A stretch of DNA of 64,000 nucleotides from Tsukamurella sp. 1534. GTDB taxonomy: Bacteria > Actinomycetota > Actinomycetes > Mycobacteriales > Mycobacteriaceae. Of this stretch, positions 3,393 to 49,863 are shown piece by piece. The notes under the pieces were generated by a model. It ran no database searches. It was not told the DNA's origin and was given only the letters and a program-made list of their open reading frames with translations. The translations under genes were made by a program, and so were the position numbers. The DNA is taken from NCBI RefSeq assembly GCF_000312385.1, contig NZ_HE997627.1, positions 191,911-255,910 on the forward strand. The letters run 5' to 3'. Every line of letters begins with the position of its first letter. Position 1 is the stretch's first letter.

Positions 3393-4444
3393 TGTCCATC
3401 GTGCAGCGCGCCTCCGAGCTCATCGGCGACACGCCCCTGCTCGAACTCGCGCGTACCGGAACGGGAACGCGCCTGCTGCTCAAGCTCGATCATCTCAACC
3501 CCACGGGTTCCTGCAAGGTGCGGATGGCCCGGCAGATGATCGACGAGGCGGAGCGGGAGGGCAGGCTGCTGCCCGGTGGCCGCATCGTCGAGCCCACCTC
3601 GGGCAACACCGGATGCGGGCTCGCCCTCGTCGCTCTCGAGCGCGGGTACCGGTTCACCGCGGTGGTGGACCGGCACGCGGCCCGCGAGAAGCTGCGGATG
3701 CTCACCGCCCTCGGTGCCGAGCTCGTGTTCGTCGAGACGCCGCCGGGCGGCGGCGTGGCCTCGGTACAGCGGCGCGCGGTGGCCGCCCGGATCGCCGAGG
3801 AGACCGGCGCCTTCCACCCCGATCAGCACAACAACGCGGGCAATGCCAACGGCTACACCGGGCTCGCGTTCGAGCTCGCGCGGCAATTGGGCACCGTGGA
3901 CGCCCTGATCGCCGCCGTCGGCACGGGGGGATCGCTCTGCGGCACCATCCGCGCGATGCGCTCGGCGGGGCACGCGACCCGCGCCGTCGCTGTCGAGCCG
4001 GAGGGGTCGATCATCTTCGGCGGCCCACCGGGCCTCTACCACCAGACCGGCGCCGGGAGTCCCGCCGGTTTCCCGGTGGGAAGCAACATCGACCGCTCCG
4101 TGATCGACGCAGCGCACCGGGTGTCCGACGCCGACGCCTTCGCCGGGGCCCGGGTCGTGGCGCGCCGCACCGGCGTGCTCGTGGGCGGCACGACCGGCGG
4201 TGCGATCCACGTGGCGCTGCGGCGGTTGTTCACCTTCCCGGCGGAGAGCACCGTGGTGGTCCTCTGCAACGACGCCGGCGAGAAGTACCTCGACTCCGTG
4301 TACGACGACGACTGGCTCCGCGAGCGCGGCGTGTTCGACGAGCTCGCGCACCGTCGGGTCCACCGCTGGTTCGCCGCCTATGACGAGTCCGTCCGGGCAG
4401 CGGCCCGCGACGGGTCCGCGCGCCTCGTGGAGGTGGGTGCGTGA
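3392..4444 (+). CDS. SbnA-like N-(2-amino-2-carboxyethyl)-L-glutamate synthase (cysteine synthase family)
   Basis: 350-residue fold-type II PLP enzyme. The PLP lysine is K42 (NPTGSCKVR), the substrate loop is TSGNTG (69-74) and the phosphate-binding loop is GTGGS (177-181). The family includes O-acetylserine sulfhydrylases. The SbnA branch instead joins O-phosphoserine with glutamate, and its product is cut by SbnB to 2,3-diaminopropionate. The PTGSCKVR active-site segment, rather than PGGSVKDR, and the presence of an SbnB-like gene in the same operon favour the SbnA assignment. Its start overlaps the decarboxylase stop, and its own stop overlaps the MATE gene by 4 nt (GTGA). Confidence 0.8.
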   Translation: MSIVQRASELIGDTPLLELARTGTGTRLLLKLDHLNPTGSCKVRMARQMIDEAEREGRLLPGGRIVEPTSGNTGCGLALVALERGYRFTAVVDRHAAREKLRMLTALGAELVFVETPPGGGVASVQRRAVAARIAEETGAFHPDQHNNAGNANGYTGLAFELARQLGTVDALIAAVGTGGSLCGTIRAMRSAGHATRAVAVEPEGSIIFGGPPGLYHQTGAGSPAGFPVGSNIDRSVIDAAHRVSDADAFAGARVVARRTGVLVGGTTGGAIHVALRRLFTFPAESTVVVLCNDAGEKYLDSVYDDDWLRERGVFDELAHRRVHRWFAAYDESVRAAARDGSARLVEVGA

Positions 4445-5832
4445 CGAGGGCCGCCACACCACCCGTCGGCGGATATCGCGAGGTGACCGCCCTCGCCGCG
4501 CCGATCGCGGGAATCCAACTGGCGCAGGTGGCGCTGACCAGCGTCGACCTCGCCATGCTGGGGCTGCTCGGCGTGACCGCCGTCGCCGCGGGCGGTCTCG
4601 CCATCCTGCTCTACAACCAGGTCCGCACGATGTGCGTCGGCATGGTGACCGGCGTCGGGAACCTCGTCGCCGCGGCGGCGGGCGCCGGCGAGGCGCGGAC
4701 CGGCACGGACGAGGTGGACGATGCCGCGCGCGACGAGATCCGCTCGCTGCTGCGATCGGCGCTCCTCGTGGCCACCGCGACGGCGGCGGCCGGCGCAACG
4801 GTCCTGTGCGGCATCGGCTTCGCCCTCCCGCTGCTGGGGCAGCGCCCCGAGATCGTGACGTCGGCGCAGGCGATGATCTTCGCCCTCGCGGGCGGCCTCT
4901 TCCCCATGGTGTGGCTCAACGTCCTGCGACAGTTCGCCGTCGGGCTGCGGCGGCCGGGGTCGCTCCTCGCGGTCACGCTCGTGTCGATCGCGGTGAACGC
5001 CCTCTGCAACGGAGCCTTCATCTACGGCTGGGCGGGACTGCCCCGGCTGGGCATCGCCGGCGTCGGCCTGTCGACCACGATGGTGCAGCTGTTCACCCTG
5101 GCCGCGTTCGCCACGACAGTCCGCCGGGACCCCGTGCTGCGGTCGATGGTCTCCCTCGCTCCCTGGCGCGCCGACCCGGCCGTGGTCCGCCACATCGTGC
5201 GGCACGGGACGCCGATCTGCTTCACGTACGGCTCCGAGGCCGCGATCACCTCGATCGCGACCCTCATGATGGGGACCTTCGGGCCTGCGATGCTGGCCGC
5301 CTCCAACGTCGCGAATCAGTTGGCGTACATCGTGTACCAGTGCAACATCGGCCTCTCGCAGGGATCGTCGATCCTGGTGAGCCGCGCGGTGGGCCGCGGC
5401 GACGAGAACCTCGCCGGGGACATCGCCCGGCGCGCGCTCACGCTGTCGTGGGCGTTCATGGCGGTGGTGAGTCTGGCGTACGTCGTCGCGCCCCAGGTCG
5501 TGCTGTGGCCGTTCCTCCGCGATCAGCAGGACGGTGCCGTGGTCGCCACCGCGGGCACGCTCCTCCTGTTCGCCGTCGCCCAGCAGTACAGCAAGGGCAC
5601 GCAGAACATCCTCGTCGGGCTGCTCCGCGGGCTCGGCGACACGAAATCCGGCCTGCGCTGCACACTGATCGGGTACTGGGCGATCGGCGTCCCGGTGATG
5701 GCGTTGTGCGCGTACGCGTTCGGCTGGGGTGGATGGGGCGTGTGGACGGGGCTCTGCGCCGGCTTCGCCGCGACCGCCGTCCTGCTCGCGCGCCGCTTCC
5801 GCGCGTCGCTGCACGCCGGCGACACGCCCTAG
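4441..5832 (+). CDS. MATE family multidrug/siderophore exporter
   Basis: 463 residues with about twelve hydrophobic segments arranged as two similar halves, as in MATE (multi antimicrobial extrusion) antiporters. It begins with GTG overlapping the SbnA-like stop by 4 nt and closes the operon. MATE proteins export cationic drugs and small natural products using Na+ or H+ gradients. As the last gene of a metal-regulated biosynthetic operon, its likely cargo is the compound the operon makes. DinF/NorM-type general detoxification is the alternative. No biosynthetic gene follows; a hairpin and a convergent gene come next. Confidence 0.85.
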   Translation: MTRAATPPVGGYREVTALAAPIAGIQLAQVALTSVDLAMLGLLGVTAVAAGGLAILLYNQVRTMCVGMVTGVGNLVAAAAGAGEARTGTDEVDDAARDEIRSLLRSALLVATATAAAGATVLCGIGFALPLLGQRPEIVTSAQAMIFALAGGLFPMVWLNVLRQFAVGLRRPGSLLAVTLVSIAVNALCNGAFIYGWAGLPRLGIAGVGLSTTMVQLFTLAAFATTVRRDPVLRSMVSLAPWRADPAVVRHIVRHGTPICFTYGSEAAITSIATLMMGTFGPAMLAASNVANQLAYIVYQCNIGLSQGSSILVSRAVGRGDENLAGDIARRALTLSWAFMAVVSLAYVVAPQVVLWPFLRDQQDGAVVATAGTLLLFAVAQQYSKGTQNILVGLLRGLGDTKSGLRCTLIGYWAIGVPVMALCAYAFGWGGWGVWTGLCAGFAATAVLLARRFRASLHAGDTP

Positions 5833-47897: not shown

Positions 47898-48809
47898 ATG
47901 TCCCCCAATGATTTCCAGGCAGTTGTGGAAACCCTGTCGCCCACCGAGCACCGATGGTTCCAGTTCCTGCTGCTGGGCGGCGTCGCGCTCGCCCTGGTGT
48001 GGCGGATCCTGGCCGCGCCGCGCCGGCGCACCGTCGTCGATCCGCGGCCGACGCCCACCGAACTCGCGTGCGTGCGATCCCGGCAGGCGCCGATCGTCGT
48101 GGCGTTGGCCCAGCTCAGGGCCGGTGAACACATCAGCGCGGTGCGGCAGGCGGACCGGTCCCGGCCACCCGGCCCGGAGGCCGACGCGTTCACCCGCGGC
48201 GTGTACGCGCACTGCGCCGACATCTCGTCGTACACCGTGAACGGCCTCACCGTGGAGTTGTCCGACGAGCTCGACGCGCTGGAGGAGCGGATGGCCGCGC
48301 GCGGTTACCTGCGCGGTGAGTCCGACCGGTGGCGGATGCGGGTGGGCGCCGCCCCGGTCACCGCGGCGTGCCTCGCCGGCGGGGTCACGGCGTTCGTGCT
48401 GCTCGTGATCGTGCGCCGGCACGACCTGACGCTGGTCGCCGGGGTTCTCCTCCCGTCGCTGCTGGTCGGCATCGTCGTGGCCCCGCACCTCTGGACCGTC
48501 GACCGTGCCACCCGGGCAGGCAGGCGCCTGCTCGGGGCGGAGGCCGAGCGGCTGGACTACCTCGCCCCGTCGCGCAGGCCCGCGTTCGCCACGTACGGCG
48601 CGGCCGCGGTCGGACTCTCCGTCGCGATGTTCGGCACGGCGGCGCTGTGGCAGTTCGACGGCGACTTCGCCGGGAACGTGGAACTCGCGGGGAGCGCGGA
48701 GGCCTCCGGCGACGGGGGCGGCTCGTGCGGCGGCGCCTCCTGTGGCGGCGACGGTGGCGGCGCAGGCGGCTGCGGTGGGTGTGGCGGCTGCGGCGGGTGC
48801 GGAGGATGA
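47898..48809 (+). CDS. TIGR04222-type membrane protein with Cys-Gly repeat tail
   Basis: 303 residues; GGGAGG lies 8 nt before the ATG. Membrane helices are at about 21-38, 153-172, 177-196 and 232-252. The region between the first two (THRxVDPRPTPTELACVRSR-like, then LRAGEHISAVRQ) matches what I know of the TIGR04222 domain. After the last helix the protein is almost only Gly, Ser, Asp and Cys, with cysteines at 277, 282, 292, 295, 298 and 301, ending in four CGG repeats. The positive-inside rule puts this tail outside. The stop overlaps the DUF692 start by 4 nt, and the tail is a plausible substrate for that enzyme. Function unknown. Confidence 0.8.
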   Translation: MSPNDFQAVVETLSPTEHRWFQFLLLGGVALALVWRILAAPRRRTVVDPRPTPTELACVRSRQAPIVVALAQLRAGEHISAVRQADRSRPPGPEADAFTRGVYAHCADISSYTVNGLTVELSDELDALEERMAARGYLRGESDRWRMRVGAAPVTAACLAGGVTAFVLLVIVRRHDLTLVAGVLLPSLLVGIVVAPHLWTVDRATRAGRRLLGAEAERLDYLAPSRRPAFATYGAAAVGLSVAMFGTAALWQFDGDFAGNVELAGSAEASGDGGGSCGGASCGGDGGGAGGCGGCGGCGGCGG

Positions 48810-49672
48810 CCGCCGCGGTGCGCACGGTGCCGGCCCTGGGGCCGCTGGGCCTGGGCTGGCGCCGGGAGATCGCCGGCGTCATCGCGGACCTGTGGCCCGG
48901 GTTCTGCGAGGTGATCGCCGAATCCGTGCCGATGCGCCGCGGGCGTGCGCTGCCCGATCCCCTGGTCGCGGCTCTGCGGGACCGCGGCGTTCCCGTGGTG
49001 CCGCACGGTGTGGCGCTGTCGCTGGGCGGGGTCGACGAGGTGGAACCCGCACGGGTGCACCGCCTGGCCGCGTGCGCCGAGGCCCTGGGGTCGCCGCTCG
49101 TCAGCGAGCACCTCGCCTTCGTGCGGGCCGGCGGGATCGAGGCCGGGCACCTGCTGCCGGTGCCGCGGACCAGGGAGGCCCTGGACGTGCTGGTGCGCAA
49201 CATCACCCGTGCCCAACGGGAGCTGCCGGTCCCGCTCGCGGTCGAGAACATCGCCGCGTTCCTGCGCTGGCCGGACGACGAGTACACCGAGGGCGAGTTC
49301 CTCTCGGAGCTGCTCGAGCGCACCGGTGCCCTGCTGGTCCTGGACGTCGCCAACGTGTACGCGAACGCGCTCAACCGCGGCCGGGATCCGCACGACGAGC
49401 TGGCGCGGCTACCCGCCGACCGGATCGCCTACAGCCACGTCGCGGGCGGTGAACACGCGGGCGGCAGGTACCACGATACGCACACCCATCCCGTGAATCC
49501 CGGTGTGCTGCAGCTTGTCACGGCCCTGCGGAAACGGGCCGACGTGCCGTTCATGCTGGAGCGGGACGGCCGCTACCCGCCCGCCGCGGAGCTCTTCGAC
49601 GAGCTCGACGCCATCGCGGCCGCGGCGGGATGCCCGACGATCACCGCGCACGCCCGGAGGGAGTGGACATGA
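48806..49672 (+). CDS. DUF692 family multinuclear non-haem iron oxidase (MNIO; MbnB/TglH-like)
   Basis: 288 residues. The DUF692 metal ligands are visible: His67 (VVPHGVALSLG), Glu101-His102 (SEHLAF), Glu147-Asn148 (AVENIA), Asp180 (LDVANVY), His211 (YSHVAGGE), Asp224/His226/His228 (HDTHTHPV) and Glu252 (MLERDG). Characterised MNIOs modify cysteines in ribosomal peptides, such as MbnB (methanobactin) and TglH (3-thiaglutamate). They usually need a partner protein. The ATG overlaps the stop of the Cys-Gly membrane protein, and the next gene starts in this gene's stop (ATGA). Modification of the neighbour's cysteine tail is inferred. Confidence 0.88.
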   Translation: MTAAVRTVPALGPLGLGWRREIAGVIADLWPGFCEVIAESVPMRRGRALPDPLVAALRDRGVPVVPHGVALSLGGVDEVEPARVHRLAACAEALGSPLVSEHLAFVRAGGIEAGHLLPVPRTREALDVLVRNITRAQRELPVPLAVENIAAFLRWPDDEYTEGEFLSELLERTGALLVLDVANVYANALNRGRDPHDELARLPADRIAYSHVAGGEHAGGRYHDTHTHPVNPGVLQLVTALRKRADVPFMLERDGRYPPAAELFDELDAIAAAAGCPTITAHARREWT

Positions 49673-49863
49673 CACTGCGGGAACAGCAGGAGGCCCTGGT
49701 GCGGGCGCTCGTCGCCGGCGGGCCGGTGCCTCCCGGCTTCGACCCCGACGAGGTGGCCGCGGCGGGCGCCGTGTGCCGGCACAAGCGGGACGCGCACGCC
49801 GGGCACGCGGAGGGGGTCGGATCAGAACGGCGGCCACGGGATCGGGCGCGACGAGGTCGGTAG
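49669..49863 (+). CDS. Small, apparently truncated partner gene of the DUF692 cassette
   Basis: 64 residues; the start overlaps the DUF692 stop (ATGA). The first 48 (MTLREQQEALVRALVAGGPV then FDPDEVAAAGAVCRHKRDAH) resemble the N-terminus of small SCO6045-like proteins that, from memory, often follow DUF692 genes in actinobacteria and are roughly 90 residues long. The rest turns Arg-rich and runs 42 nt into the 3' end of the convergent SCO1664-family gene. The C-terminal half therefore seems lost. It may be a functional short partner, a decaying remnant or a degenerate peptide. Confidence 0.6.
   Translation: MTLREQQEALVRALVAGGPVPPGFDPDEVAAAGAVCRHKRDAHAGHAEGVGSERRPRDRARRGR

Follow-up and report, generated by a model that had tools for sequence, protein, structure and literature searches.

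A candidate cassette for modifying a Cys-Gly protein tail, with a putative miniature MNIO partner, in Tsukamurella sp. 1534

It is proposed that three adjoining genes of Tsukamurella sp. 1534, located in the 64,000-nucleotide stretch of DNA analysed here (the window), may form a self-contained cassette for the modification of a protein tail, a reading of the whole to which we give moderate credence. Gene 1 encodes a TIGR04222 membrane protein whose Cys-rich C-terminus is, judging from sequence comparisons, quite probably the substrate of the MNIO enzyme encoded by gene 2, and gene 3, which the first-pass annotation of this DNA had left unidentified, appears to encode a miniature form of the MNIO partner protein (PME-type 2). 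The central hypothesis has a precedent in print. According to the portion of their article at hand (PMC12452194), Antoine et al. (2025) assembled over 3,500 TIGR04222 proteins, saw that these often have an MNIO as neighbour and end in Ser/Gly/Cys tails, and suggested for a subset of them that the Cys-rich C-terminus is an MNIO substrate; contrary to what had initially been claimed, the system is not undescribed. There, as here, a Cys-rich C-terminus of the same family stands beside an MNIO. What is likely added here, in silico, is a miniature or joined partner, further tail carriers and a different likely topology; neither this form of the partner helper, nor interchangeable carriers, nor an inward tail was found described in that portion of the article or by literature searches. 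An earlier paper on Pseudonocardia (2016) placed a TIGR04222 peptide in a predicted bacteriocin cluster, as stated in the accessible part of that source (PMC5183585). The features of the cassette are as follows.

47898..48809, plus strand: gene 1, TIGR04222 membrane protein, 303 aa, putative tail-bearing substrate (NCBIfam profile, AlphaFold2 model)
48687..48806, plus strand: Gly/Cys tail of gene 1, residues 264-303, six Cys, the last four in CGG repeats (translation, conservation, model)
48806..48809, plus strand: ATGA overlap of gene 1 stop and gene 2 start (sequence)
48806..49672, plus strand: gene 2, MNIO enzyme (PF05114 MbnB_TglH_ChrH), 288 aa (profile, ligands, PDB relatives)
49669..49672, plus strand: ATGA overlap of gene 2 stop and gene 3 start (sequence)
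49669..49863, plus strand: gene 3, candidate miniature MNIO partner (PME-type 2-like), 64 aa (homologues, fold of the full-length homologue, shared frame)
49669..49797, plus strand: conserved core of gene 3, residues 1-43, ending in CRHKRDAH (pN/pS, invariant residues)

The enzyme and its putative partner

Gene 2 matches the MNIO profile PF05114 with 258.7 bits (cut-off 25), and its relatives in the Protein Data Bank (PDB) are 3bww and TglH (8hci). The nine DUF692 ligands that the first-pass annotation had listed (His67, Glu101, His102, Glu147, Asp180, His211, Asp224, His226 and Glu252) are all present; eight of them are invariant in an 81-row alignment apart from one row that is gapped at position 67, and Glu101 is replaced by Asp in 5 rows. 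The iron ligands of TglH are His71, His107, Glu151, Asp184, Asn187, His216, Asp229, His231 and Glu258 (PMC10880893); their counterparts in gene 2 are His67, His102, Glu147, Asp180, Asn183, His211, Asp224, His226 and Glu252, Asn183 and the pairing with TglH having been read by eye from the translation and an alignment to 8hci_D. Two narrower identities were rejected, gene 2 scoring 181.8 bits as the bufferin maturase BufB (NF050167), below the equivalog cut-off of 310, and 150 bits as the HvfB maturase (NF003818), below that of 360.

Gene 3 homologues stand after the MNIO gene in 79 of 80 relatives, where the start was taken as the start codon closest to the 4-base overlap, and they occur at all 54 sampled TIGR04222-linked MNIO loci, shared-frame and miniature forms included and a match anywhere within the fetched locus accepted. 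In the consulted part of PMC12452194, by contrast, many TIGR04222-MNIO clusters are said to lack apparent partner genes, PME-type 2 partners being given for at least 10%. MNIO and partner lie in one stop-free frame in 32 genomes, a count that took no account of internal starts; at one locus (L074) no gene 3 was found. A full-length gene 3 homologue is predicted by modelling to have a TglI/MbnC-like fold, and the gene 3 family displays the features that define PME-type 2 partners: a predicted structure like that of NGO1945/TglI, no DUF2063 signature, and a gene placed after the MNIO.

The 64-aa protein of the window shows sequence homology to the N-terminal part of the full-length partner only. 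Eighteen short versions from Tsukamurella and Mycolicibacterium/Mycobacterium, that of the window included, group together in the enzyme tree as a single clade with support 100/100; outside this clade, short versions are found in Gordonia rhizosphera and one Rhodococcus. Across the 18, pN/pS is 0.19 for the 43-residue core and 0.74 for the remainder, and C36, R37, H38, K39, R40, D41 and H43 are invariant in every one; the low ratio in the core together with the invariant CRHKRDxH indicates that gene 3 is a selected remnant, apparently of helix 1 and part of helix 2, and not debris. Its origin as a chance open reading frame (ORF) is ruled out by conservation and purifying selection. The Cys and two His of the CRHKRDxH motif (residues 36-43, window 49774-49797) could bind metal. 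Comparison with the TglHI (3-thiaglutamate) and MbnBC (methanobactin) systems reveals a likeness in the iron ligands of TglH, which match gene 2, and in the modelled fold of the full-length partner, whereas gene 3 of the window has lost most of that partner, the strand part included; TglI needs helix 3, of which gene 3 has no equivalent. A search with the gene 3 profile against PDB sequences gave no meaningful match, and plain Foldseek for gene 3 placed unrelated chains on top, with MbnC at rank 17 (E 0.91). A full-length partner encoded at a second MNIO locus of the genome might serve both loci.

The Cys-Gly tail, its link to the MNIO and its carriers

Gene 1 scores 82.7 bits against NCBIfam TIGR04222 (cut-off 43), which bears out its earlier description as TIGR04222-like. 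Its Cys residues lie at positions 58, 106, 158, 277, 282, 292, 295, 298 and 301; the last six are in the tail, and translation confirms both these and the four CGG repeats recorded before. The tail is disordered in the AlphaFold2 model (pLDDT about 40-53), and its terminal Cys and Gly columns, where conservation reaches 90% or more, rank among the best-conserved of a 49-row gene 1 alignment drawn from MNIO loci only.

The association of such tails with the enzyme was followed in 296 genomes evenly drawn from the class, 109 of which have a TIGR04222 match (84 over the cut-off) and 76 a PF05114 match. The C-termini of 107 TIGR04222 matches from those 84 genomes were inspected, a Cys tail being defined by three or more Cys among the 60 C-terminal residues and linkage as a distance within 3 kb of an MNIO; such tails end 43 of 62 linked matches versus 10 of 45 elsewhere, the 107 including partial matches that have no true tail (e.g. 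G298, G364 and G177). When full-length matches only are counted, the figures are 41/60 linked and 7/27 unlinked; with one large genus (g5) excluded, they are 34/36 and 10/36. Fisher tests on these linkage counts and on the locus counts below ignore relatedness, except at the genus level, where 20 of 21 linked genera versus 4 of 17 unlinked ones have Cys tails (a genus being scored as Cys-tailed if at least half of its members are, ties included). Conservation of the Cys residues and of the gene pairing across genera, which the first-pass annotation had named beforehand as a test, is thereby borne out. Gly follows Cys in 185 of 212 cases in the linked Cys tails and follows other residues in 931 of 2325, and CGG forms the last three residues of 16 of the 43 linked Cys-tailed matches.

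A CGG ending is also found at 48 of 63 loci with a tail ORF in our first set (window included); among the first 81 loci, the tail criterion gave no ORF in 18, six of which start at the MNIO. In a table of 78 loci, assembled by hand from 89 profile-match rows with ten partial or low-scoring ones left out, and with a slightly different tail criterion where TIGR04222 is absent, a tail on one carrier or another accompanies the MNIO at 51 of 71 loci that have gene 3 and at 0 of 7 that do not. Added to this set, genome G023 has gene 3 and no tail on its strand. A same-genus genome (L194, G427:C68) carries two tandem Cys-tailed TIGR04222 genes before the MNIO. At L305, L306 and L307, where neither gene 3 nor a tail was found, the MNIOs score about 367-370 bits and are probably another MNIO type.

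Proteins other than TIGR04222 carry the tail as well. The second MNIO locus of this genome (L233; G000:C1:100600-111400, minus strand, about 4178-5770) lies downstream of a gene that was judged by eye to be aminotransferase-like and runs from the MNIO through a 94-aa protein to a full-length gene 3-like partner; in the 94-aa protein, a single N-terminal helix is followed by an Arg-rich stretch and then by a Gly/Cys tail. One-helix carriers of this kind (83-119 aa) stand beside MNIO and partner at no fewer than ten loci, one of them in this genome, a non-exhaustive list obtained from 30 matches taken as loci. The mini-protein lies between MNIO and gene 3 in eight loci and after gene 3 in L236 and L278; the loci besides these two and L233 are L304, L291, L292 and L298-L301. 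At two loci of genus g157 (L293 and L295), the tail is borne by a protein some 440 aa long in which no 19-residue window falls below 8 on a hydrophobicity scale of the Hessa type; the L295 protein has no Pfam match, and L293 has a second Cys-Gly tail ORF upstream. By sequence, the Cys-Gly tail appears to be a portable module on TIGR04222, one-helix and soluble proteins. Most strikingly, a single genome possesses two sets of such a tail, enzyme and partner, and the membrane parts that bear the two tails are unrelated.

Topology and proposed chemistry

Four membrane helices had been assigned to gene 1 at first, with the tail placed outside by the positive-inside rule, so that modification would have to precede export. 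The AlphaFold2 model (mean pLDDT 85.9) instead has three continuous long helices (16-39, 152-171 and 177-199), the fourth hydrophobic stretch being broken into short ones (230-233, 235-245, 247-253 and 255-260; block pLDDT 93-97), and in homologues of gene 1 the equivalent of this stretch is often charged or weakly hydrophobic. With three helices, the positive-inside rule brings the tail out inside, in agreement with the one-helix and soluble carriers, and no modify-before-export step is then required. These charges, the broken fourth helix of the model and the soluble carriers together suggest that the tail of gene 1 faces the cytoplasm, which we take to be likely. The alternative is that the tail is an MNIO substrate outside the membrane, on a four-helix protein modified before or during insertion in a bufferin-like manner, as in the first-pass annotation and in Antoine et al. 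(2025), who predict periplasmic tails in the portion of PMC12452194 at hand. The 0-1 charges of the fourth segment in 68 of 92 Cys-tailed members would suit this arrangement; however, the segment has two or more charges in 24 of the 92, the model breaks it up, the one-helix carriers are Arg-rich on the tail side, and carriers at two loci have no hydrophobic segment, so that an exterior tail seems unlikely. For the soluble part of gene 1, a GOLPH3/GPP34-like fold is a weak lead only.

If gene 1 has three helices and its N-terminus outside, enzyme and tail would both be in the cytoplasm. There gene 3, the shrunken PME-type 2 partner, would dock on the gene 2 MNIO, and the pair would oxidise Cys residues, mostly those followed by Gly, in the disordered tail. 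In captophorins, as reported in the available part of one study (PMC13097082), an MNIO and its partner remove 4 H at the Cys of the EGKCG repeats, which becomes a 5-thiooxazole, and the resulting product is copper-binding; the Cys-Gly tails make a captophorin-class product plausible here, and by analogy with captophorins and bufferins each modified Cys would lose 4 Da. Such thiooxazole-type chemistry is put forward quite tentatively, and a metal role of the tail, suggested by the same analogy, is a possibility we hold a little more readily; the end result would be a soft-metal ligand, for copper perhaps, that is anchored in the membrane and faces inward. The bufferin and captophorin systems (BufABC, HvfABC and FonABC) likewise direct an MNIO and a partner to low-complexity Cys peptides, with Cys-Gly in the EGKCG type and reported copper binding, but their precursors have Sec signal peptides and their partners are of the DUF2063-RRE kind, whereas here a membrane protein is the presumed substrate. 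Neither PF09836 nor PF10048 (DUF2063 and DUF2282) has a match in this genome at E <= 0.001, in a search in which the Caulobacter control was positive for both.

Remaining alternatives, setting and meaning

Some loci weigh against the proposal that the enzyme modifies the adjoining tail. In genus g5, 17 of 26 loci with MNIO and partner have no nearby Cys tail (one, G323, being cut by a contig end); five Cys-tailed TIGR04222 proteins of genus g167 lie far from any MNIO; and four Rhodococcus loci have no tail gene. One enzyme with one adjoining substrate everywhere is excluded by these cases. They would fit a different explanation, in which the MNIO-partner pair modifies another molecule, an unannotated small peptide or a protein in trans, and the TIGR04222 protein serves as sensor, transporter aid or anchor, its tail binding metal unmodified. 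The strong genus-level tie of tails to MNIO, the persistence of similar tails while the carriers change, and the Cys-Gly bias argue against this explanation, which we consider improbable. A hidden small precursor was sought in the tail-less g5 loci by clustering, in which overlapping frames were fused and no candidate stood out clearly. In g5, MNIO and partner are often in one frame; a similar protein follows them in L264, L265, L269 and L282 (by eye; DUF4142 confirmed for L269), and in L264, L265 and L269 it stands before a tail-less TIGR04222. That the Gly-rich tails of TIGR04222/DUF2207-type proteins are structural, with Cys gained by drift in GC-rich genomes beside an incidental MNIO, would suit the unlinked TIGR04222 proteins that often end Gly-rich without Cys and the resemblance of DUF2207_C to 27 of 49 gene 1 family members (best E 1.1e-4), but is already disfavoured and highly improbable given the conserved terminal Cys, the way Cys tails follow MNIO linkage, and the similar tails on unrelated carriers beside MNIO and partner.

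The genome is 4.5 Mb in size, and its closest named relatives at the locus are Tsukamurella, with 82-84% identity in gene 2. The three plus-strand genes, joined by two ATGA overlaps as first described, are flanked by mshC and a PAC2 gene on one side and by SCO1664-family and DUF3090 genes on the other, the SCO1664-family gene being convergent with gene 3 and overlapping it by 42 bases. Clustering of flanking ORFs for a functional neighbour yielded lineage-bound neighbours only (the 45 largest clusters were inspected by eye, and one neighbour, DUF4142 in L269, was scanned).

In its widest form, the proposal would make this a general C-terminal tagging system of Actinomycetota, in which an MNIO and a PME-type 2 partner, joined to it or reduced to about 60 residues, act in the cytoplasm to oxidise a portable Cys-Gly tail on three-helix, one-helix or soluble carriers, creating inward metal or redox sites on otherwise unrelated proteins; we rate this generalisation at slightly below an even chance. 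Should the tail prove to be modified, full-length cellular proteins would be among the targets of MNIO chemistry, a suspicion already voiced in print, and the reaction would take place on the cytoplasmic side, which would change where the product and its metal should be looked for. Both the portability of the tail and the joined and miniature forms of the partner lend themselves to simple constructs that can be tested, and the miniature form may show how little an MNIO requires.
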